Positions 779-64,000 of a stretch of 64,000 nt of DNA are shown piece after piece. Positions within the stretch are counted from its first letter, which is position 1. Each line of letters begins with the position of its first letter. The translations under genes and the position numbers were made by a program. The notes under the pieces are model-generated. The model had not been told where the DNA came from, did not search any database, and saw nothing but the letters and a program-made list of their open reading frames with translations. Source of the DNA: Rhodohalobacter sulfatireducens (GTDB lineage: Bacteria; Bacteroidota; Rhodothermia; Balneolales; Balneolaceae). The stretch spans positions 1 to 64,000 of the forward strand of contig NZ_JAKLWS010000016.1 in the NCBI RefSeq assembly GCF_022012475.1, in the 5' to 3' direction.

Positions 779-3082
779 ATGAAATACTACAGTTCATTAA
801 CACTTTTTCTAAGTATTTCTTTAGTCTTTATTTCATGTACGAATGGGGGAAAGATATATCCCCAGGCACCCATAGGTTTAACATGTGAGTTACTGCAGGC
901 ACCTGAAGAAGCCGTTATCACAGATGCGAACCCGGAATTTGGTTGGATTGTAAATGATTCACGAAATGGAGCAATGCAGTCTGCCTGGCAGGTATTGGTG
1001 AGTTCAGACAAGAATCTTATTCAGAATGACAACGGTGATATGTGGGATTCAGGCAAAACCGATTCAGATTTCTCAACAAATATTTCCTATGCCGGTAAAC
1101 AATTGCAAGCTAACACAGCGTATTGGTGGAAGGTACGCACCTGGGATCAACATGGAGAGGTAAGTGCTTACAGCTCTCCACAAAGGTTTAATACAGGTGA
1201 TTTTAATAACACAGATAGAAACTGGCCGGGTGAAAGCCTTTGGGATCAGGTGGAAGTAGATGGTGAGACGAAGTATGTCTTCGAGAACAGGCATCCGATA
1301 CGATACCATGAGGTGAAGCCGGTATCGGTGGCCAGGAATTCATCAAACAACCATTTTATCCGCTTTGAAAAGGCAGCTTTCGGTGCACTTAAACTTACAA
1401 TTGATTCTCCTGAAAATGCAGATACGCTTGTTGTGCATTTGGGAGAAGATAATACGGAAAACCAGGTAAACAGGGATCCGGGAGGATCAATCAGCTATAA
1501 CCGCATCGAGGTTGCGCTTGAACCCGGTAAAGAAGATTATATTGTTGAGATTCCAAGATTTGTATCAAACTATCCAAACAGCCAGGTACTTGCTGATCAT
1601 ATGCCCGAAGTAACGGCCTTCCGATATGCAGAAATAGAAGGCCTGGAAGGTGATCTGAAGCCTGAACAGGTACGTCAGCTTGCATTGCTTTACCAATTTG
1701 ATGATGAGGCATCTCATTTTAACTCATCAAGTGAAAACCTGAACCAAATATGGGAACTCAGCAAACATACGCTCAAAGTAACGCCCTTTATGGGTGTATA
1801 TATTGATGGGGGTGCCCGTGAAAGGATGCCTTATGAGGCCGATGCCTATGTTCAGCAGATTAGTCATTATAGTGTAGACCGTGAATTTGCCATACAGCGT
1901 TATACGGCAAACTTTCTGATTTTCAATCCCAGCTGGCCTACAGAATGGCATCTGCATATGGTTCTTATGGCCTGGGCTGATTATATGGCAACCGGTAACG
2001 CAGAATTTCTGGAGAAATATTATGATGAACTCAGAAAGAAAACAATGCTCCCGCTGGCAAGAGAGGATGGATTAATCAGTACCCGCACAGGGTTGGTTAC
2101 CGAAGAGTTCCTTTCAAGTATTCATTACCATGGTGATATTTTCAGGGATATTGTGGATTGGCCACAGGGTACTCCGGCAAATGAAACTGAGCTAAGGAGT
2201 GGGCACGGTAGTGTAACGTTAGCCGGAGAAACGGACCGTTACATTTTTTCAGACATTAATACTGTGGTTAATGCTTTTCACTACCGAAACCTTGTATTAA
2301 TGGCCAAAATTGCCGGGGTATTAAACAACATAGAAGATGAAATATTTTTTAACGAAAGATCTGAACTTGTTAAAGAATCAATGAATGAAAAACTTCTGGA
2401 TAAGAATACAGGTTTGTACAGGGATGGCGAGGGAGTAGATCATCATGCTTTTCATGCCAGTATGTTCCCTGTGGCTTTTGGTATAGCTCCGGAGGAAAAT
2501 TATCCCCAACTACGAGATTTTTTGATCTCCAAAGGAATGGCCAGCAGCCCATATGGAGCTCCATATTTGTTTGATGCTCTTTATAAACTGGGGGCTGAGG
2601 ATTATGCGTTTGAACTTCTGACCTCCGAAACGGACCGCAGCTGGATGAATATGATCCGCTTTGGTACCACGATTACATCTGAAGCATGGGATCTGAAGTA
2701 TAAACAGAATATGACCTGGAACCATGCATGGGGTGCCTCTCCGGCATATATAATAACTCGGGGTTTATTTGGGATAGAACCGCTTGAGCCTGCATACAGG
2801 TCTGTACTTATAAAACCCCGGCCGGGAGCGCTCCAAAGCGCTGAAATTAAGAGTCCTACAATCAGGGGGCCTATACATGCAAAATTCAATAAGGAACCCG
2901 GAGTATTTCGTATGGAGCTTGTTATACCCGCAAACACAAATGCAAAGGTATTGCTACCCAAACCCGAGATAGAGGATTTTACGTTTCGATTAAATGGAAA
3001 TGAAGTTCCTTTTACTATTGAAGAAGAATCAGTTTCAATTGATAATCTTCAAGCCGGCAATTATCTGCTGGAATTGCGATAA
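779..3082 (+). CDS. GH78-type (alpha-L-rhamnosidase-like) lipoprotein
   Basis: This is a secreted glycoside hydrolase of the alpha-L-rhamnosidase type (767 aa from this start). An open frame extends upstream to 617, but the ATG at 779 begins a clean lipoprotein signal (MKYYSSLTLFLSISLVFISC), so I take 779 as the start. After the lipobox Cys comes an N-terminal beta-sandwich/Fn3-like region typical of GH78 enzymes (residues ~30-140, with WDSGK and YWWKVRTWD). Then come an accessory beta domain, an (alpha/alpha)6 catalytic region starting near residue 330, and a C-terminal beta domain. The segment around Glu348 (ARERMPYEADAY) matches the position of the conserved acidic catalytic region of GH78. 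By family it releases rhamnose or a related deoxy-sugar from glycans, here at the cell surface or in the periplasm. It heads the glycan segment followed by the Gfo/Idh, DUF1080 and sulfatase genes. The exact substrate is unknown. Confidence 0.82.
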   Translation: MKYYSSLTLFLSISLVFISCTNGGKIYPQAPIGLTCELLQAPEEAVITDANPEFGWIVNDSRNGAMQSAWQVLVSSDKNLIQNDNGDMWDSGKTDSDFSTNISYAGKQLQANTAYWWKVRTWDQHGEVSAYSSPQRFNTGDFNNTDRNWPGESLWDQVEVDGETKYVFENRHPIRYHEVKPVSVARNSSNNHFIRFEKAAFGALKLTIDSPENADTLVVHLGEDNTENQVNRDPGGSISYNRIEVALEPGKEDYIVEIPRFVSNYPNSQVLADHMPEVTAFRYAEIEGLEGDLKPEQVRQLALLYQFDDEASHFNSSSENLNQIWELSKHTLKVTPFMGVYIDGGARERMPYEADAYVQQISHYSVDREFAIQRYTANFLIFNPSWPTEWHLHMVLMAWADYMATGNAEFLEKYYDELRKKTMLPLAREDGLISTRTGLVTEEFLSSIHYHGDIFRDIVDWPQGTPANETELRSGHGSVTLAGETDRYIFSDINTVVNAFHYRNLVLMAKIAGVLNNIEDEIFFNERSELVKESMNEKLLDKNTGLYRDGEGVDHHAFHASMFPVAFGIAPEENYPQLRDFLISKGMASSPYGAPYLFDALYKLGAEDYAFELLTSETDRSWMNMIRFGTTITSEAWDLKYKQNMTWNHAWGASPAYIITRGLFGIEPLEPAYRSVLIKPRPGALQSAEIKSPTIRGPIHAKFNKEPGVFRMELVIPANTNAKVLLPKPEIEDFTFRLNGNEVPFTIEEESVSIDNLQAGNYLLELR

Positions 3083-3251
3083 AATTCTCTAATAATTGGA
3101 ATTAAAAAATACAATTGATAAAAGGATTTTTTGGATTGATCTCATATTCTAATTTGATAAAAAACCGCTTTCATCAGATAAAATTTTCGTTTATCGTTAC
3201 AGTAATGATTTAAAACAATAACAGTAAAAAATTACTGAAAACCTTACTACC

Positions 3252-4568
3252 ATGACCAAATTTACACGCCGTCAATTTATCAAAACTTCAGGAAGTGCAA
3301 TTGCGGGAGCGAGCCTCGCTCCATTAGCGGGACTTAAAAATCTAACCGTTGCTCCATCAGATACCGTAAATGTGGCCCTGATTGGATGCCGATCCATGGG
3401 ATTTGGTGATTTAACCAATGCTATTAATGTGGAGGGTGTAAATTGTATCGGATTGTGTGATGTAGACCAGAATGTTTTGGAGGACCGTGCCGCTGATGTT
3501 GAGCAGATGACAGGATCAACACCGCAATTATATGGTGATTACCGTAAACTACTCGAAAACCCTGATCTGGATGCTGTTATTATCGGTACACCGGATCACT
3601 GGCATTGCCTGCAAACAGTCCATGCACTTGAAGCCGGCAAGCATGTATATGTTGAAAAGCCTTTGGCCAACAATATTGCAGAAATTAATGTGATGAAAAA
3701 AGCTGCAAATTATTATGGGCACGTTGTCCAGGTGGGGCAGCAGCAAAGAAGTGGTGCCCACTGGCAACATGTGGTTGATCTTGTTCAATCCGGGCACCTT
3801 GGCAAAATTCGACAGGTAGATCTTTGGGGGAATTTTGGTTACGGAGTAGGCGCAAATCCGGTTGAAGACAGTCCCGTTCCTGAGGGCGTTGATTATGATA
3901 TGTGGTTAGGTCCCGCACCGGATCGAGCATTCAATCAAAATAGATACCATGGATCTTGGAGATTTTTCTGGCATTATGGTGGCGGTGTACAGACCGATTG
4001 GGGGGTCCACCTGCTGGATATTGCACTCTGGGCGATGGAGATTGATGGAATGCCACACTCGGTTCACTCAATAGGGGGTATTTTTTCAGGAATGGACCGG
4101 GCTATAGAGATGGCCGATACGCAAACCACAACTTACGCATTCGATGATTTTAACATGGAATGGAAACACACCGGCGGACTGGAAATGGGCCCATACAACC
4201 GGCACTATGGAATAGCGTTTGTGGGAAATAAAGGCACGCTTGTTGTGAACCGTGATAGCTGGGAGATTATTCCTGTTGAGGGTGAAGATGATCAACCACT
4301 TGTTGAACGAGTTTCTGAACAGGGAGACAGCTCTTATCATGATATTCATGCGAAAAATTTCATCGAAAGCATCCGTGGTAATGAAACGGAAGCGGCTCCC
4401 ATTGAAGCTGGTCATTTAGCTGCGATGTACGCTCACTTGGGTAACCTCTCCTACCAGACAGGTGATACACTTAAGTTTTATAATACCGGTCAGTTGGTTG
4501 ATGAAAGCAAATATATGGATATCATCAAACCGGATTACAGAAATCCCTGGACATTTCCAAGTGTTTAA
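3252..4568 (+). CDS. Tat-exported Gfo/Idh/MocA family oxidoreductase
   Basis: NAD(P)-dependent sugar oxidoreductase of the glucose-fructose oxidoreductase/inositol dehydrogenase family, 438 aa. It opens with a twin-arginine signal (RRQFIKTSG) and a short hydrophobic stretch, so it is exported folded, probably with its cofactor bound. The Rossmann domain begins near residue 37 (VNVALIGCRSMG). The family EKPLA motif follows, with Glu135-Lys136-Pro137, whose Lys is the usual active-site residue. GGGVQTDWGVHLLD holds the conserved Asp and His of the C-terminal substrate domain. It stands 169 bp after the GH78 gene and 116 bp before the DUF1080 gene. Gfo/Idh with DUF1080 is the pairing known from oxidation-elimination cleavage of glycosides, so oxidation of a sugar at C3 is a reasonable inference. 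Confidence 0.88.
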   Translation: MTKFTRRQFIKTSGSAIAGASLAPLAGLKNLTVAPSDTVNVALIGCRSMGFGDLTNAINVEGVNCIGLCDVDQNVLEDRAADVEQMTGSTPQLYGDYRKLLENPDLDAVIIGTPDHWHCLQTVHALEAGKHVYVEKPLANNIAEINVMKKAANYYGHVVQVGQQQRSGAHWQHVVDLVQSGHLGKIRQVDLWGNFGYGVGANPVEDSPVPEGVDYDMWLGPAPDRAFNQNRYHGSWRFFWHYGGGVQTDWGVHLLDIALWAMEIDGMPHSVHSIGGIFSGMDRAIEMADTQTTTYAFDDFNMEWKHTGGLEMGPYNRHYGIAFVGNKGTLVVNRDSWEIIPVEGEDDQPLVERVSEQGDSSYHDIHAKNFIESIRGNETEAAPIEAGHLAAMYAHLGNLSYQTGDTLKFYNTGQLVDESKYMDIIKPDYRNPWTFPSV

Positions 4569-23634: not shown

Positions 23635-23842
23635 TAATTAGTAGTAAGTATTGAGTATTAAGTAGTGAGATGGTTTGGTTTATAAATACAAAAAAATAAA
23701 CCTGAGGATAGCGCGAGCCTCTTGCTCGTGTTTCTAATTAGCGCATCCCGACCCTTCGGGGCGCCATCAGAACCACTTTTACTCAACTATTTATTCTGAA
23801 TCGAATCTCAGTACTCAATACTTCCTACTCAATACTACTCAT
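23635..23842. repeat. Inverted-repeat spacer between sufA-like gene and DUF2480 gene
   Basis: Two low-complexity arms abut the genes. The left arm (about 23639-23670) follows the stop codon; the right arm (23806-23842) runs into the next ATG. Both are built from AGTATTGAGTA-like units, with a perfect 12-bp inverted match AAGTATTGAGTA / TACTCAATACTT. Between them are a GCGCGAGCCTCTTGCTCG stretch and the hairpin CCCGACCCTTCGGG (23747-23760). No coding potential is seen. Confidence 0.7.
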
Positions 23843-32594: not shown

Positions 32595-32904
32595 GAAACG
32601 GCTAAAAAGATTAGATAGAAAAGTACTAAAAAAGGAGGCCTCAAGAAATGGGAAATGTAGATTGTAGGTGGTTAGTTGTCAGTGGTTAGTATGTTTCCTG
32701 AATAACTTAAGATGAATCCAAAAATCTCGACTAACAGAACATGAAAATAACGAACAACAAACAACTGACAACAGGCGTAACAATCGATAGATTAATCATA
32801 AAACGGAATTCAGTATTTAACATTTTTCATTCTTACCTTTGTGTGAAGCAGTAAAGGCACGTACCTTCCACTCTTAACCAAAAAATGTGATTTGAACGAC
32901 TTTT
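32595..32904. other. Divergent intergenic region ccmB / EIIA with inverted repeat
   Basis: 310 bp between divergent genes. Low-complexity arms at about 32671-32690 and 32753-32772 pair through GTTGTCAGT/ACTGACAAC and neighbouring bases. Promoters for both genes must lie here. No gene is seen. Confidence 0.55.
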
Positions 32905-33375
32905 ATGAATATCTATTCACTCATTAACACATCAACAATTTTGGCAGATTTTGAGATTGACAATAAAGAAGAACTTCTCCATAAAATGGTTGATGTTCTG
33001 AAAGAAGAGGTCAATGATAAACAACTGGAGGATATTAGGGACGCTGTCTTTGAGAGGGAAAAAATTATGTCCACCGGTGTGGGTAAGAGTCTTGCCATAC
33101 CGCATGGAAAAGTTGAATCCATAGAAAAGAATTATGCCAGTTTTGCTGTTCTAAAAGAACCCATTGAGTATGATTCTATCGATGATCAACCGGTAAATAT
33201 GGCTTTTCTACTGGTTGGGCCTGCAGGTGAAAATCGACTGCACATTAAACTGTTGAGCAGGATTTCACGTTTAATGAACAGTACATCTTTCCGGGAAACA
33301 CTATCCGAATGCAAAACAGCCGATGAGATTTATGATGCATTTCATAAAGAAGAAGTTAAATATTTTGGTAACTGA
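32905..33375 (+). CDS. PTS EIIA-type protein (fructose/nitrogen family)
   Basis: 156 aa PTS EIIA type 2 domain. The phosphorylatable His67 lies in AIPHGK; GVGKSLAIPHG and LLSRISRLM are typical of the EIIA-Fru/Ntr family. No EI, HPr, EIIB or EIIC gene is nearby, so a regulatory (PtsN-like) role is more likely than sugar transport, but this is inference. It ends 62 bp before the next open frame. Confidence 0.88.
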   Translation: MNIYSLINTSTILADFEIDNKEELLHKMVDVLKEEVNDKQLEDIRDAVFEREKIMSTGVGKSLAIPHGKVESIEKNYASFAVLKEPIEYDSIDDQPVNMAFLLVGPAGENRLHIKLLSRISRLMNSTSFRETLSECKTADEIYDAFHKEEVKYFGN

Positions 33376-33464
33376 GATTTTGGTGTTCATACCCGTTTCA
33401 ACAATGTCCCGATGTCTCTCCTTTGATATCATTCTGAATGATTGATCGTACTTCATATTTACTT

Positions 33465-34922
33465 ATGAAAACCCGTACAGCTTTGTTCGGTTTGATAACT
33501 TGTCTGTTACTCCTCTTTTTTTCTGCGGATGCAAATGCCCAGATCTCTGAACCCATTCTGAATTTGATTGAAAATAACAGGGCTGAGAATGCTTTGTGGG
33601 TGGTTCAGGTGCGAGACTCAAGCGGATCTGTATTGGAGAGTTATAATGCTGATAAGATTATTCGGCCGGCATCCAACCTTAAACTAATCAGTTCCGGCGC
33701 ATATTTAGAGTTTCTTGGGGCTGACTATAAATTCAGAACAAGATTATATGGCGAAGGTGAACAAGCAGGAGATACCTGGTCGGGCGACATGGTTGTACAG
33801 GGATCGGGTGATCCGTCAATCAGTGGTGAGTTTTACCAGGATAACCCGCTGTTTTTGTTTGAGAAGTGGGCTGACCTGCTTATTGATAAGGGCATTCAGA
33901 AGATTGACGGAAATCTAATCGGCCACACCGGCCTCTTTGATGATATTCCCTACCCCGAAGGTTGGGAGTGGAGCGATCTGTCGTTTTATTATGCTCCCGA
34001 GATTAGTGCGCTGTCATTCAACGGAAATGTGGTAAACCTGGAAGTAGTTGCGGATGGACCCGTTGGCTCGGCACCGGAAATTCAATGGTTTCCATTTAAC
34101 ACTCCCTATGTTGAATTTATAAATGAACAGCAGATCACCCCGAGGGGCAGCAAATACGATGAGTCCTATCGCCGGGTTCTTGGAACCAACACCATAATCC
34201 TTCGAAGTACACTTCCACAGGGGTATTACGAAACCGAACCTCTCTCAATCCTGGAACCGGCGTACTATTTTATGGATACCTTTAAGCGGTATCTGGTAGA
34301 AAGGGGAGTTGAGGTGACGGGACAGATTTTTATAGATCATAATTACGAATTTTACAGTGAAAATGGATTACAGCTCTTGGATGAACATCAGTCCGAACCA
34401 CTCCATGAATTAATTCAATGGATGAACCGTGAGAGTGATAACTTTTATACGGAGATGTTTCTGAAAAAAGCCGTCACGGAGGTTTACGGTGTCCAGGGTT
34501 CTACTGATTTAGGACTGGAGATGATGAAGTCGTATATGCAAGAGATGGCGTTTGATACTAGTCAGGTGAGTCTCAAAGATGCATCGGGGATGGCACCGGC
34601 CACGCTTTTGAAGGCAAGTGACTTGAATCGATACCTTTTAAAGGTACAGGAGAAAGAGTATTTTCCATACTTATACGAATCACTCTCTGTGGGTGGAAGA
34701 AACGGAACCCTGAGTTACAGGTTCAACAATAGTCCCGTATGGGGAAATTTTAATGGGAAAACCGGTTTTGTAACAGGAGTCCGGTCCCTTTCGGGTTACC
34801 TGGAAACAGAATCAGGACAGCGTCTGATCGTATCTATTTTTACAAATAATTATACAGCAAAGACCTCGCATGTTGATTTAATTCATCAGCGAATCCTCGA
34901 ATACCTTCATTCAGCATATTAA
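33465..34922 (+). CDS. D-alanyl-D-alanine carboxypeptidase/endopeptidase (PBP4 type)
   Basis: 485 aa from the ATG at 33465; an in-frame ATG lies upstream at 33438, but the Sec signal (MKTRTALFGLITCLLLLFF ending ANA-Q) starts at 33465. All three catalytic motifs of class C low-mass penicillin-binding proteins are present: SNLK (in RPASNLKL), SDN (in RESDNFYTE) and KTG (in GKTGFVTG). PBP4 enzymes trim and open peptidoglycan peptides in the periplasm. The NtrC-type regulator starts 2 bp after its end. Confidence 0.93.
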   Translation: MKTRTALFGLITCLLLLFFSADANAQISEPILNLIENNRAENALWVVQVRDSSGSVLESYNADKIIRPASNLKLISSGAYLEFLGADYKFRTRLYGEGEQAGDTWSGDMVVQGSGDPSISGEFYQDNPLFLFEKWADLLIDKGIQKIDGNLIGHTGLFDDIPYPEGWEWSDLSFYYAPEISALSFNGNVVNLEVVADGPVGSAPEIQWFPFNTPYVEFINEQQITPRGSKYDESYRRVLGTNTIILRSTLPQGYYETEPLSILEPAYYFMDTFKRYLVERGVEVTGQIFIDHNYEFYSENGLQLLDEHQSEPLHELIQWMNRESDNFYTEMFLKKAVTEVYGVQGSTDLGLEMMKSYMQEMAFDTSQVSLKDASGMAPATLLKASDLNRYLLKVQEKEYFPYLYESLSVGGRNGTLSYRFNNSPVWGNFNGKTGFVTGVRSLSGYLETESGQRLIVSIFTNNYTAKTSHVDLIHQRILEYLHSAY

Positions 34923-34924
34923 AT

Positions 34925-36295
34925 ATGAGCTCAAAGACTACCATCCTGATTACCGACGATGAGCAGAGCATCCGCAATGTCCTGAAGGAGATTCTTGAGT
35001 TTGAGGATTACGCAACTCTTGAAGCCGAAAATGGCGAAGAAGCCCTTGAAAAAGTTGAGAAAGAGCGGGTGGACCTCGTGATGCTGGACATTAAAATGAA
35101 GGGAATGGACGGTATTGAAGTATTAGAGAAACTGAAAAAAACTAAACCCGAGATTCCGGTGATCATGATTTCCGGGCACGGCACGATTAAGATCGCCGTG
35201 GAAGCCACAAAGAATGGTGCGTTTGATTTCCTTGAAAAACCACCAGACCTAAACCGGCTATTGACAAGCGTTCGCAATGCTTTAAAAAGCGGCGAGCTGA
35301 TCCAGGAGAACAGAGAAATTCGAAAAGAACTACATGGTAATACGGAGATAATCGGTGAGAGCCCGGCGATCCTTAAAGTGAAAAAGATGATTGAAAAGGT
35401 GGCCGCCAGCAACAGCCGTGTTTTGATTACTGGTGAGAATGGAACAGGGAAGGAGTTGGTAGCCCGCGCGATTCATGAAAAAAGTAAACGGTCGTCAAAG
35501 AAATTTGTGGATGTAAACTGTGCAGCGATACCTCCGGATCTGCTGGAAAGCGAACTGTTTGGTCATGAGAAAGGAGCATTTACCGGTGCATCCTCCCAGC
35601 GAATCGGGAAGTTTGAACAAGCCGACGGCGGAACATTGTTTCTTGATGAGATCGGTGATATGAGTGCGGACTCCCAGGCAAAAGTACTCAGAGCACTCCA
35701 GGAAAACCAGATTACCCGCGTGGGCGGATCGGAACGAATTGATGTTGACGTTCGAGTACTGTCGGCGACGAACCAGGATCTGCAAGAGCAGATTGAACAC
35801 GGCAATTTTCGGGAAGACCTGTTTCACCGCCTGAATGTTATTCCCATACATCTGCCTCCACTGCGCGAGAGAAAGGATGATATCTCAATTTTAGCAAAGT
35901 GGTTTTTACAGCAGTTGTCTGAGCGGGAGATTGTATTTGCAGGCAAATCTTTTTCTGATGAGGCACTCGAACTGCTGGAAAAACAGTCGTGGTCGGGAAA
36001 TATCCGGGAATTGCAAAACGTAGTTGAACGCCTTGCCCTTTTATCGACTGATGATGAAATATCTCCCGAGGATGTTGAACAGTTAGTTATCCAAAAAAAG
36101 AAGCAGAAGAATATGCTGGATGACATGCTGGATCAAACCGATAATTTCCATGAATACAAAGAGGAAGCCGAGCGAATGTTTTTGCTCAAAAAACTTGAAA
36201 AATACGACTGGAATGTGTCCGCTACCGCCGAGGCAATTGACATTCAAAGAAGTCACATCTATAACAAGATGAAGAAATACGATATTGAAAGATAG
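34925..36295 (+). CDS. Sigma-54-dependent response regulator (NtrC family)
   Basis: 456 aa with three domains in order: a receiver domain (residues ~5-118) with acidic pocket Asp11-Asp12 and phospho-acceptor Asp55; an AAA+ sigma-54 activator domain (~140-375) with Walker A from Gly170 (GENGTGKE) and the GAFTGA loop at 217-222 that contacts sigma-54; and a C-terminal Fis-type helix-turn-helix (~415-455). It activates sigma-54 promoters when phosphorylated. No sensor kinase gene is adjacent, so its kinase is elsewhere. It is coupled to the PBP4 gene (2 bp gap), hinting at envelope-related control. Confidence 0.95.
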   Translation: MSSKTTILITDDEQSIRNVLKEILEFEDYATLEAENGEEALEKVEKERVDLVMLDIKMKGMDGIEVLEKLKKTKPEIPVIMISGHGTIKIAVEATKNGAFDFLEKPPDLNRLLTSVRNALKSGELIQENREIRKELHGNTEIIGESPAILKVKKMIEKVAASNSRVLITGENGTGKELVARAIHEKSKRSSKKFVDVNCAAIPPDLLESELFGHEKGAFTGASSQRIGKFEQADGGTLFLDEIGDMSADSQAKVLRALQENQITRVGGSERIDVDVRVLSATNQDLQEQIEHGNFREDLFHRLNVIPIHLPPLRERKDDISILAKWFLQQLSEREIVFAGKSFSDEALELLEKQSWSGNIRELQNVVERLALLSTDDEISPEDVEQLVIQKKKQKNMLDDMLDQTDNFHEYKEEAERMFLLKKLEKYDWNVSATAEAIDIQRSHIYNKMKKYDIER

Positions 36296-36388
36296 TCTTT
36301 TGTTTGTTGCTGGTTGTTAGTGGTTCGTTGAATAGCTAAACCACTAACCACTAACAACAGACAACTAACTACGAACAAAATACGATCT
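36296..36388. repeat. Inverted repeat filling the spacer before folD
   Basis: The whole 93-bp spacer is one low-complexity inverted repeat. GTTGTTAGTGGTT (36313-36325) pairs perfectly with AACCACTAACAAC (36346-36358), and outer TTTTGTT pairs with AACAAAA near 36375-36380. The left arm begins right after the regulator's stop and the right arm ends 9 bp before the folD ATG. Confidence 0.75.
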
Positions 36389-52409: not shown

Positions 52410-52544
52410 GATGGCGCAAGCGTCATCGCTCGTGGCACTTTAACTCGGGAGTGTTCTCAATGTCTATGACTAGCGCAAGTTTGTAACTTGTGCGATGAAG
52501 ATCCAATTTGCAAACTTGAACCAGTTATTGACGCTTACGCCATC
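52410..52544. repeat. Nested inverted repeat between ABC exporter and NfeD genes
   Basis: Outer arms GATGGCGCAAGCGTC (52410-52424) and GACGCTTACGCCATC (52530-52544) match in 14 of 15 positions. Inside is a hairpin GCGCAAGTT-TGT-AACTTGTGC (52473-52493), with a further GCAAACTTG near 52510. The genes on either side diverge, so it may also overlap their promoters. Confidence 0.7.
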
Positions 52545-61107: not shown

Positions 61108-62841
61108 TTATGCTTTCGTTTTTTTCGTGCCTTCAATTGAAAGCTGAATTCCATTGTTATCATCCATATCAGGATAACTTACACCAGAAAAAGCTTCATT
61201 TAAACCGGCAATTTCTTCTATGATTTCCCGTCCGGAATTATATACAACATCCACTCCGCTTTGATCAGAAACTTCTGCCATAAATCTCCAAAGTGGCAAA
61301 CAATCCACCTTATTCTCTTCAGTTCGCCAATTATCGAAGTTGGTTCCGTAACGATCTAAGCGACCTTCAGACATCTCCAGGTCAAGCCGCCGGTTGGAAT
61401 ATTTGGTCTCCTTAGCAGGAAATGTACGTTGAATTCGTCCGTCGATATTAACATAGCTTGCTGCATGTTCAGCGGCAGTTGTAATTGGCACTACAAGATC
61501 AGCTGCTTTTGTTGTATCAGAGTGGTTCGTTGCAAAAACGATCACAAATTTATCGTCAAAATCTTCCTGTGACAAAACATTTCGATCCAATAAATGATCA
61601 CTTAATACGATAACCAGTTCAGCATTTTTAACTGATTTCTTGATGGCTGAAGCTTTCTTCTCTTTAAGATTCAACAGTTTACAACCAGTTGTATTGGGAG
61701 CAAGATCATCCGTGATCAAAAAGCCATCACCTTTTCCTTCTTCGATGTTAGGCGTAAATACGGGCTGATCAATTCCCAGAAGGTTTGCATACTTGCTGAA
61801 GACATAATTCTCTTCAACGGATGCATGAGGACTGCCGATAATTAAAATCTTGTCTTTGTCCGTATCGGCTACTTGTTCATTAAATGTAGCGATTGCGTTA
61901 TTCCAAGATGAAAGAATCTGTTCACCATCTAATTTCTGTATCGGCCGTGAAATTCTGTTCTCATTGAACAATTTATAAGCATCCCGAGCTTCATCAGGAA
62001 TCCAATGATCGTTAACATCTTCATTGTGGCGCGGTGTAATTCTCAGGATGAGATTGTCACGCGTCCACAGGTCAATATTCGATCCTTTCCCATTCGTAAT
62101 ATCGATACTTGGAGTCTGGTTCATTTCCCAAACTCTCGCTTTAAACCTAAAATCAGATGATGTTAGTGCACCCACCGGACAGATATCCACGGTATTCATT
62201 GAATATGGATCATCAAAGGTTTCTCCCGGTGCTGTGGTCGGGTAATTCTTATCACCCCGCGAAGTGATCGTCAATTGATGTGTATTACTGATCTCCTGGG
62301 TAAATCGCGTGCATCGGGTACAGTTGATACAACGTTCAGCATCAAGTGTAACCCTGGGTCCGAGCTCAACTCTCTTGGGCTTATGAACTTTTTTCACTTC
62401 AAACCGGCTTCCTTCAGGACCATACTTGTACGTTTGAATTTGAAGCGGACACTCACCCGCCTGATCACAAATCGGGCAATCAAGTGGATGATTAATCAGG
62501 ATAAATTCGAGGTTATCTTTTTGAGCCCGTTTTACTAAATCATCGGTTTCCTGAGTGTGAACCACCATATCATCAGACATAGTGAGATTACAGGAAGTCT
62601 GAAGCTTTGGAAACCAACGGATCTGTTTTTCACCGTTTTCGTCCAACTCATATTCTCCGGTCTCCTTGTCCTTCACATATTGTCCTACCTTCACCATACA
62701 CTGGCGGCAGTTTGCAGGGATGGACATTGAAGGGTGATAACAGAAAAATGGTACCTCTTTCCCGAGATCCTGAATAAACTGGAGAAGCTTATGCTCTCCT
62801 TCAAATTCGTATGTCTGACCGTCAATGACTATTTCGGGCAT
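61108..62841 (-). CDS. nuoG: NADH-quinone oxidoreductase subunit G
   Basis: 577 aa from the ATG at 62841; an upstream ATG at 62886 lies in the neighbouring repeat and is not likely used. The N-terminus is the 2Fe-2S ferredoxin domain (PFFCYHPSMSIPANCRQCMV). The His-Cys3 cluster region follows (HPLDCPICDQAGECPLQ), then a 4Fe-4S domain (CINCTRCTRF, CPVGALT). The C-terminal molybdopterin-oxidoreductase-like part is short. At 577 aa it is much shorter than E. coli NuoG (908 aa). Confidence 0.95.
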   Translation of the reverse strand: MPEIVIDGQTYEFEGEHKLLQFIQDLGKEVPFFCYHPSMSIPANCRQCMVKVGQYVKDKETGEYELDENGEKQIRWFPKLQTSCNLTMSDDMVVHTQETDDLVKRAQKDNLEFILINHPLDCPICDQAGECPLQIQTYKYGPEGSRFEVKKVHKPKRVELGPRVTLDAERCINCTRCTRFTQEISNTHQLTITSRGDKNYPTTAPGETFDDPYSMNTVDICPVGALTSSDFRFKARVWEMNQTPSIDITNGKGSNIDLWTRDNLILRITPRHNEDVNDHWIPDEARDAYKLFNENRISRPIQKLDGEQILSSWNNAIATFNEQVADTDKDKILIIGSPHASVEENYVFSKYANLLGIDQPVFTPNIEEGKGDGFLITDDLAPNTTGCKLLNLKEKKASAIKKSVKNAELVIVLSDHLLDRNVLSQEDFDDKFVIVFATNHSDTTKAADLVVPITTAAEHAASYVNIDGRIQRTFPAKETKYSNRRLDLEMSEGRLDRYGTNFDNWRTEENKVDCLPLWRFMAEVSDQSGVDVVYNSGREIIEEIAGLNEAFSGVSYPDMDDNNGIQLSIEGTKKTKA

Positions 62842-62849
62842 TTTTTTAA

Positions 62850-63304
62850 ATTGTTGATTTTTGATTGTCGATTGTTGAATGATCAATCATAGATTTTGTT
62901 GAGCTGTTTTCCTGGATTTGATAAAAATTGAAGTCAGTTCATATGCTTCTTTTCTTAAGTCTTCCACCATTTTATTGGATTTCAATTTTTCATCAATAAT
63001 AAACTTTAACCAGAATTCGGACTCATCCACTTCTTCTATAACAATACCGATTTTGTGTATAAAAACTGCTTTCGTTTGACCATGACATGCTGCTCGATAG
63101 TTAGCTGCAACTGATGTACTACATCGTATTAACTGCCCTTTTATGTGATTTCCTAAAGCGGTCTTTGGTAAAGCGATAGCTAATTTTACACATTTATGGG
63201 CAAATGCTTTTTGTTCGTTTTATTAATTCATCTTTTCTCATGATGATTGAATTTTGTGATAATTTGATGAGTTTTAAAATAATCAACAATCACAAATCAA
63301 CAAT
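62850..63304. mobile_element. Candidate cassette bounded by 24-bp inverted repeats, holding a four-helix-bundle gene
   Basis: The ends 62850-62873 and 63281-63304 are inverted repeats matching in 22 of 24 positions, built from TTGTTGATT and TGATTGT units. The ~455-bp segment fills the nuoF-nuoG spacer: it stops 6 bp short of the nuoF stop codon and starts 8 bp from the nuoG ATG. Its only coding content is the frameshifted gene at 62887-63241. No transposase is present, so any movement would be in trans or by recombination. The mobile nature is inferred. Confidence 0.5.
62887..63241 (-). pseudogene. Four-helix-bundle (23S rRNA intervening-sequence-type) protein gene, frameshifted
   Basis: The ATG at 63241 opens MRKDELIKRTK, then the frame shifts by one base in a run of five A residues (63205-63209 on the plus strand); with four A's it would be in phase. 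The next frame continues AFAHKCVKLAIALPKTALG, QLIRCSTSVAANYRAACHG, EVDESEFWLKFI and VEDLRKEAYEL, ending at the TGA at 62887-62889. This is the full layout of S23/IVP-type four-helix-bundle proteins (about 118 codons). It was missed by simple ORF calling because the second part has no early ATG. It could be a real decay, programmed frameshifting, or a sequencing error in the A run. Confidence 0.85.
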
Positions 63305-63310
63305 CATCAA

Positions 63311-64000
63311 TCACGCCAGAGCGTGTACGCTTTTCTTACACCGGGCTTCAAACTCATCCCGGAAGCGATTGATAGTATGACGAACCGGCCATGCAGCTGC
63401 ATCAGCAAGAGCACAGATTGTCCGTCCTTCCATCTGTGTGGTAAGGTCCAGTAAAAGATCGAGATCCTTCACTTCGCCTTCGCCATTTTTAATCTTCAAT
63501 AATATTTTTTCAAGCCAGCCTGTACCTTCACGGCATGGAGTACATTGTCCACAAGATTCATGATGATAAAAGTGTGCAATTCGCCACAGCACATCCACCA
63601 TATCTGTGTCTTCATCCATCACAACCATTCCGGCTGTTCCCATCATGGTACCAACAGTTCGAAGGGAATCGCTGTCCATTGTAATTCCATCAAGTTGATC
63701 TGCTCGTAATACGGGAGTGGATGAGCCGCCAGGAATAACAGCTTTCAGTTCTTTGCCTCCTTTAATTCCCTGGGCAACATCATGAATCAAGTCAAGAACA
63801 GGAACACCGGATGGTAATTCATACACGCCGGGTCGGTTTACGTGACCGGAAATTCCATAGAGTACAGGACCGGGATGATTTTTTGCACCAACGCCTTTGA
63901 ACCACTCAGCACCTCGGTTAATCACCGCAGGTACATGCGCCAATGTTTCAATATTGTTGATGGTGGTTGGCCGTCCCCATAATCCTTTTTGAGCAGGGAA
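63311..64000 (-). CDS. nuoF: NADH-quinone oxidoreductase subunit F (cut by window end)
   Basis: The gene enters from beyond 64000; about 229 C-terminal codons are visible. The frame is open to the last base, with KGLWGRPTTINNIETLAHVP before the internal TTG that an ORF caller might take as a start. The fourth 4Fe-4S site is complete: SCGQCTPCREGT with a later Cys in RTICALADAAAWPV. NuoF carries FMN and accepts electrons from NADH. The stop at 63311 lies 6 bp from the inverted-repeat end of the cassette before nuoG. Confidence 0.96.
   Translation of the reverse strand, partial: FPAQKGLWGRPTTINNIETLAHVPAVINRGAEWFKGVGAKNHPGPVLYGISGHVNRPGVYELPSGVPVLDLIHDVAQGIKGGKELKAVIPGGSSTPVLRADQLDGITMDSDSLRTVGTMMGTAGMVVMDEDTDMVDVLWRIAHFYHHESCGQCTPCREGTGWLEKILLKIKNGEGEVKDLDLLLDLTTQMEGRTICALADAAAWPVRHTINRFRDEFEARCKKSVHALA

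Follow-up and report, generated by a model that had tools for sequence, protein, structure and literature searches.

Introduction

The spacer between nuoF and nuoG of Rhodohalobacter sulfatireducens holds a small gene between inverted repeats, and this locus raises the question of whether a mobile element lies within the nuo operon and, if so, what kind of element it is. A preliminary description of the DNA analysed here (the window, a stretch of 64,000 nt forming positions 1 to 64,000 of contig NZ_JAKLWS010000016.1) had proposed, from the sequence alone, that the spacer is a mobile cassette with a single gene of the IVP/S23 type. A 2024 paper still described the S23 domain as functionally uncharacterized (PMC11270868).

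Results

The insert between nuoF and nuoG

The cassette takes up the whole spacer (62842–63310, minus strand, 469 nt), with the 3' part of nuoF (63311–64000, minus strand) as the host gene upstream and nuoG (61108–62841, minus strand) as the host gene downstream. Its S23/IVP four-helix-bundle gene (62886–63240, minus strand) points in the same direction as the operon and matches the PF05635 profile at 47.3 bits, above the cut-off (HMM match 62926–63231). The inverted arms at 62850–62876 and 63278–63304 are 27 nt long, 89% complementary and have 401 nt between them; their score of 19.5 was equalled in 0 of 1000 dinucleotide shuffles (mean 8.1, maximum 16.0). Both arms consist of tandem degenerate 7-mers (lag-7 arrays). 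On the plus strand, the array beside nuoG (62843–62891), which pairs in the RNA fold, reads TTGATTT TTGATTG TCGATTG TTGAATG, and that beside nuoF (63276–63316), which runs into the nuoF stop codon, reads AATCAAC AATCACA AATCAAC AATCATC AATCA; on the minus strand, the sequence from the nuoF stop codon on is TGATTGA TGATTGT TGATTTG TGATTGT. The arms end 6 bp from the nuoF stop (63311–63313) and 8 bp from the nuoG ATG (62839–62841), and one extra A in an A run near 63205 shifts the reading frame of the gene, whose orthologue in the relative G005 is open (117 aa) and whose orthologues in G024 and G003 are intact as well. On all these points (inverted ends around a single gene, their distances to the host genes and the 1-bp insertion) the preliminary description was accurate; it did not recognise the arms as runs of 7-mers.

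In both the MFE and the centroid RNA folds the two arms pair together with the gene in the loop (whole-fold z = −1.8). An S23/IVP open reading frame and stem-forming terminal inverted repeats, as in rRNA intervening sequences (IVS), are both present in the insert, which sits between nuoF and nuoG and not inside an rRNA gene.

Cassettes and gene-less arms in the same genome

The genome (G000) contains 13 PF05635 matches, corresponding to about 12 genes, each of which lies between inverted arms of a 6–8-mer word that differs at nearly every locus. Inverted terminal ends, as first described, were thus found, but one shared terminal repeat was not: the ends are heptamer words that go with the protein subfamily. 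Comparison of each left arm with the reverse complement of the right arms gave a score of 16.8 within loci and 8.7 across loci, a same-locus value reached in 0 of 100,000 permutations, and 11 of the 12 loci paired best with themselves. A background survey covering 1.26 Mb of the genome revealed 23 real lag-7 arrays, a 24th having been left out as a run of N, versus 1–10 at other lags; for eight of the 23 arrays, one of 11 S23 genes is no more than 250 nt away. These results bear on the possibility that the arms are an artefact, in which low-complexity spacers and replication slippage yield 7-mer runs that happen to pair. Tandem 7-mers are indeed prone to slip and the arms are poor in C, but the strength of own-arm pairing, the shuffles at nuo, the specificity of lag 7 and the proximity of arrays to S23 genes make this explanation extremely improbable, and chance arms were rejected by the shuffles, the cross-locus permutation and reversed-arm controls.

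The remaining 15 arrays largely reuse the words of the genome's own cassettes, chiefly AGTATTGAG of L002 and GTTGTTAGTGG of L006. Three are visible within the window, in agreement with the earlier remark that other spacers have similar arms: a gene-less inverted pair with the L002 word (23637–23836), with same-site arms in several congeners; a pair with the L006 word (32656–32777), whose second arm was read by eye; and a hairpin with the same L006 word (36298–36376). Gene-less matches per arm numbered 1.18 for own arms, 0.50 for reversed arms and 0.65 for arms from other phyla, and at a score of at least 18 the values were 0.41, 0 and 0.10, respectively, with two word families dominating. The gene-less hairpins are derivatives that reuse the genome's own cassette words. 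A composite 3.7-kb element (32656–36378) was considered and dropped, as each of its ends is a local hairpin of its own.

Other repeats and motifs were also encountered. The short repeat GACATGGTATTTTT forms inverted pairs with 67–68 nt between arms (C50, near 13092, 191699 and 239777), and several spacers, including those at 23700–23790 and 52425–52529 of the window, contain a dispersed palindrome (GATAGCGCGAGCGTC...CTCGTGC type) that has no relation to the heptamers. Of the 83 S23 genes in the order, 41 (e.g., L006, L008, L014 and L116) are preceded by a GTAAGG-containing motif, with TTCATAC about 16 nt beyond it at some loci; the motif is possibly a promoter.

Filled, decayed and empty sites among relatives

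The nuo spacer was compared in 30 relatives. A full cassette is present in G000, G005, G024 and G003, as well as in G030, which belongs to another genus; remnants were identified at L066, L068, L075 and L081, and the spacer is short to empty (12–15 nt) at L067, L091 and L093. At least two genera have inherited the nuo copy from a common ancestor; it is intact in some genomes, decaying in others and broken in G000. At a second site (L003), G000 and G005 both carry a cassette, in opposite orientations, and G012 carries none (L140). No clear orthologous locus was found for the L004 site. The L139 cassette (2943–3362) occupies the same site as L003, with opposite orientations in the two congeners, which suggests either that the cassette was inverted by way of its arms or that it was inserted twice independently. 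Empty sites of the kind by which mobility was to be judged thus exist, and with the plasmid pairs described below they uphold the mobility of the cassette; a fresh insertion at nuo is not what was found, the copy there being shared by descent. The nuo insert is likely to represent an ancient copy, since inactivated in G000, of a minimal mobile element in which S23 is the only gene.

Full-length nuo S23 pairs have pN/pS values of about 0.20–0.34, indicative of purifying selection on intact copies. Because inheritance at nuo is mostly vertical and intact copies are under such selection, a benefit to the host is possible. Concerted evolution of the arms at one site is not claimed: of 45 'same-site' pairs, 32 had own-arm scores above the cross scores, yet this tblastx set contains false pairs, and true orthologues score about equally in both comparisons. 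A single case, in which G000 and G005 differ in both arms (GTTTAA to GTCTAA), is striking but anecdotal.

Copies at unrelated sites and insertions in plasmids

Over 469 nt, the two G030 cassettes L116 and L117 are 84% alike; the similarity stops near the arms, which are themselves nearly identical. In conjugative cyanobacterial plasmids, filled and empty sites were found with flanks that are 97–99% identical. Plasmid site 1 reads GTTAAAAA-GTAAT-TAACAAATAAATATG when empty and GTTAAAAA-GTAAT-[cassette]-GTAAT-TAACAAATAAATATG when filled, and site 2 reads AGG-TTCTA-GGTTATG when empty and AGG-TTCTA-[cassette]-TTCTA-GTTATG when filled. Clean 5-bp direct repeats (GTAAT, TTCTA) are limited to these two sites; at a third the repeat has one mismatch (TAATG/TTATG), and two more, with flanks 92–95% identical, gave no clean repeat reading. 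The two sites with clean repeats (designated A and C) combine terminal inverted repeats with a 5-bp target-site duplication, and between plasmid sites the cassette alone aligns. Site 1 also documents decay, with arms lacking the gene in Brasilonema and a truncated copy in Nostoc (C052), so that one site provides a series from full, through gene deleted with arms kept, to empty. The insertions at the first three plasmid sites are all located at stop codons, a position that may explain how an operon survives them. The filled and empty sites, the 5-bp repeats and the copies at unrelated sites show that S23 cassettes are mobile.

The same observations weigh on a reading in which S23 binds the hairpins and these serve the host in regulation or mRNA stability, mobility being incidental or ancient. 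Arms kept without a gene at one site across a genus, purifying selection on S23 and the pairing of arms in predicted RNA are all in keeping with such a role. However, the number of PF05635 matches varies from 0 to 15 among the genomes of one genus, the plasmid insertions are recent and clean, and the nuo site shows decay and empty spacers, and we regard this reading as very unlikely.

The protein and its relationship to the end word

No recognisable transposase was found in the cassette, whose only gene, S23, matches no profiles other than TIGR02436 (in 20 of 20 relatives), PRK12275 and, weakly, Avd (NF033474; seven of 20 members). To our knowledge, neither a recombinase nor a nuclease motif has been described in S23. 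A reverse transcriptase of the RVT_1 family, resident in the genome, was rejected as the motor because several cassette-rich genomes lack it: a search detected none in G030 (12 S23 matches, 99% complete), G003, G023 or G034. The solved homologues 2gsc and 2rld have five chains each, and the S23 oligomer is therefore probably a pentamer.

Cassettes at different sites within the order revealed a relationship between arms and protein. Arm similarity is at background (~5.3) below 50% protein identity, rising to 7.6 at 50–60% and 9.2 at 60–80% identity (control ~5.8), and arm and protein similarity are correlated across different sites of the one order (Mantel r = 0.26, p = 0.0005). Among inter-phylum pairs with at least 60% protein identity, 44% share the word versus 5% in the reversed control. 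For instance, L116 of Balneolota and copies on plasmids of Trichormus and Nostoc have CAGAATTCAGAAGTCAG-type arms in common, and the starts of their proteins are closely similar. The S23 protein subfamily thus pairs with the end word across sites and even phyla.

This pairing is evidence against S23 as a passive passenger, that is, cargo or an autoregulator within MITE-like cassettes moved in trans by an ordinary IS transposase. Direct repeats of 5 bp are typical of DDE transposition, S23 has no known catalytic motif and gene-less copies occur, as would be expected of such passengers. Yet the ends differ wholly between subfamilies while tracking S23 across sites and phyla, and a single transposase could hardly read so many unrelated heptamers, which leaves the passenger explanation improbable, if less so than a host-serving RNA element.

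Distribution and the link to rRNA intervening sequences

Arm scores of at least 12 were obtained for 63 of the 83 S23 genes across the order. For all phyla sampled, the best lag was 7 in 146 of 171 arms versus 17 of 171 when shuffled; read inward, the arms contain 10% C and have a median length of 31 nt, or about four units. In a multi-phylum set, 38 of 79 loci scored no lower than the 99th percentile of the cross-locus control; that roughly half of these loci do not surpass it counts against the mobile-element reading. Phyla with such arms include Chloroflexota, Acidobacteriota, Planctomycetota, Patescibacteria and Bacteroidota, and other loci, an archaeal (Methanophagales) one among them, fell just under the same percentile. 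All 10 plasmid loci examined scored at least 14.5, and 31 of 35 further loci, most from the gammaproteobacterial class, at least 13; the phage collection searched yielded one weak match only. The flanks of other family copies, in this genome, the order, other phyla and plasmids, thus carry such ends, the check that the preliminary description had put forward. The cassettes often separate two genes that belong to the same operon or system, such as nrdB/nrdA, cas6/cas4 and drmD/MmeI. Three plasmid cassettes (L309, L310 and L313) lie within apparent defence clusters, DISARM drmD/MmeI and DUF1156-Swt1, the latter in a cyanobacterium and a chloroflexote.

One copy, L314 on an Azospirillum lipoferum plasmid, resides in a 23S rRNA gene (Rfam RF02541), at the helix-45 region as judged by flanking sequence, and its arms are TCAGAGGACGGATGACAGAGGACGG and the inverse (GGACAGA-type on both sides). 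The 23S IVS of Coxiella burnetii has a 28-bp terminal stem with GACAGAT three times at its 5' end and is reported to be excised by RNase III in vitro (PMC4990558). It shares with the S23 cassettes the protein family, the terminal inverted stem and the tandem heptamers; known IVS, however, are in rRNA and have been treated as remnants or rRNA-processing features (PMC4990558), whereas the cassettes lie between protein genes, have gene-less copies with their own words and are found at filled and empty sites. The cassette architecture is identical to that of one 23S rRNA intervening sequence, and the rRNA copies of Coxiella and Azospirillum and the intergenic cassettes appear to be a single type of element found in different places.

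Discussion

Several known systems resemble the S23 cassettes in part. RAYT is an HUH tyrosine transposase. S23 is not of this type but an unrelated four-helix bundle, and its ends are tandem heptamers, although REP/REPIN and RAYT likewise combine short hairpins scattered through intergenic DNA with a single gene that has the repeats on either side (PMC3116915). MITEs are likewise small and intergenic, with inverted ends and direct repeats at the insertion (PMC10969869), but S23 cassettes carry their own gene, whose subfamily predicts the end word; a MITE has no gene and takes its ends from an autonomous IS, a definition that excludes the cassette and that its gene-less derivatives would fit. 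The Avd accessory protein of diversity-generating retroelements belongs to a fold family homologous to S23 but works with a reverse transcriptase, whereas the cassettes need no resident RVT_1 enzyme, and the Avd-type copies L375 and L376 are without heptamer arms. The 1.5-Mb genome of the gammaproteobacterial class from which these two copies come (G386:C1) has about ten near-identical Avd-type S23 genes, each apparently in a diversity-generating retroelement with a variable-protein end upstream and a reverse transcriptase-like frame downstream.

Heptameric intergenic repeats have been reported before, as GGGAATC in Xanthomonas and Nostoc (PMC4692102) and TAACTGA in Beggiatoaceae (PMC4679880). 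Xanthomonas campestris has 186 heptamer patterns, with 70 cases of two sites inverted and convergent (PMC4692102), and the Beggiatoaceae paper goes only as far as the speculation that mobility might reside in a protein that binds the repeats (PMC4679880). Both describe tandem 7-mers in spacers, as here, with no mention of S23 genes (PMC4692102, PMC4679880). Among the loci retrieved for the present comparison, no Xanthomonas S23 gene with GGGAATC arms could be recognised. Our literature search found no description of such an element; subscription journals were mostly outside its scope, so an earlier one is possible. The rRNA form is of a kind already known, and the S23 cassette as a transposition system would be new.

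The best explanation of these results, and in our judgment a likely one, is that a minimal mobile element uses S23 as its specificity factor and that S23-type rRNA IVS are copies that landed in rRNA. This element consists of one S23/IVP gene with an array of about four tandem heptamers on each side, the two arrays being inverted relative to each other. We infer that an S23 oligomer, probably a pentamer, would bind its own arms with about one 7-nt unit per subunit; given the five chains and arms of about four units, a putative ring that reads one heptamer per subunit is attractive. Through such binding S23 would select the DNA to be mobilised, which may then be joined at a staggered cut to leave the 5-bp duplication, with catalysis by a partner or by S23 itself. 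In transcripts, the arms would pair into a long stem and leave the gene in a loop, as happens in the IVS cut by RNase III; processing of this stem, suggested by analogy with the rRNA IVS work, and insertion at stop codons would jointly allow an operon to tolerate the element. A bolder claim, for which we see the chances as evenly poised, is that S23/IVP proteins are a new class of transposition protein, in which a ring of ~120-aa subunits would read the 7-mers of the ends and mobilise the cassette, as well as gene-less hairpins of the same word, with a 5-bp duplication, S23-type rRNA IVS and many unexplained bacterial heptamer repeats being products of this activity.

These findings suggest a mobile origin for S23-encoding intervening sequences, and with it a route into rRNA genes, and they suggest a role for a common 'uncharacterized' family of four-helix-bundle proteins. 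In addition, they offer a possible reason for the tandem heptamers in bacterial spacers and predict a protein-to-repeat recognition code, from subfamily to 7-mer, that would be readable directly from genomes.
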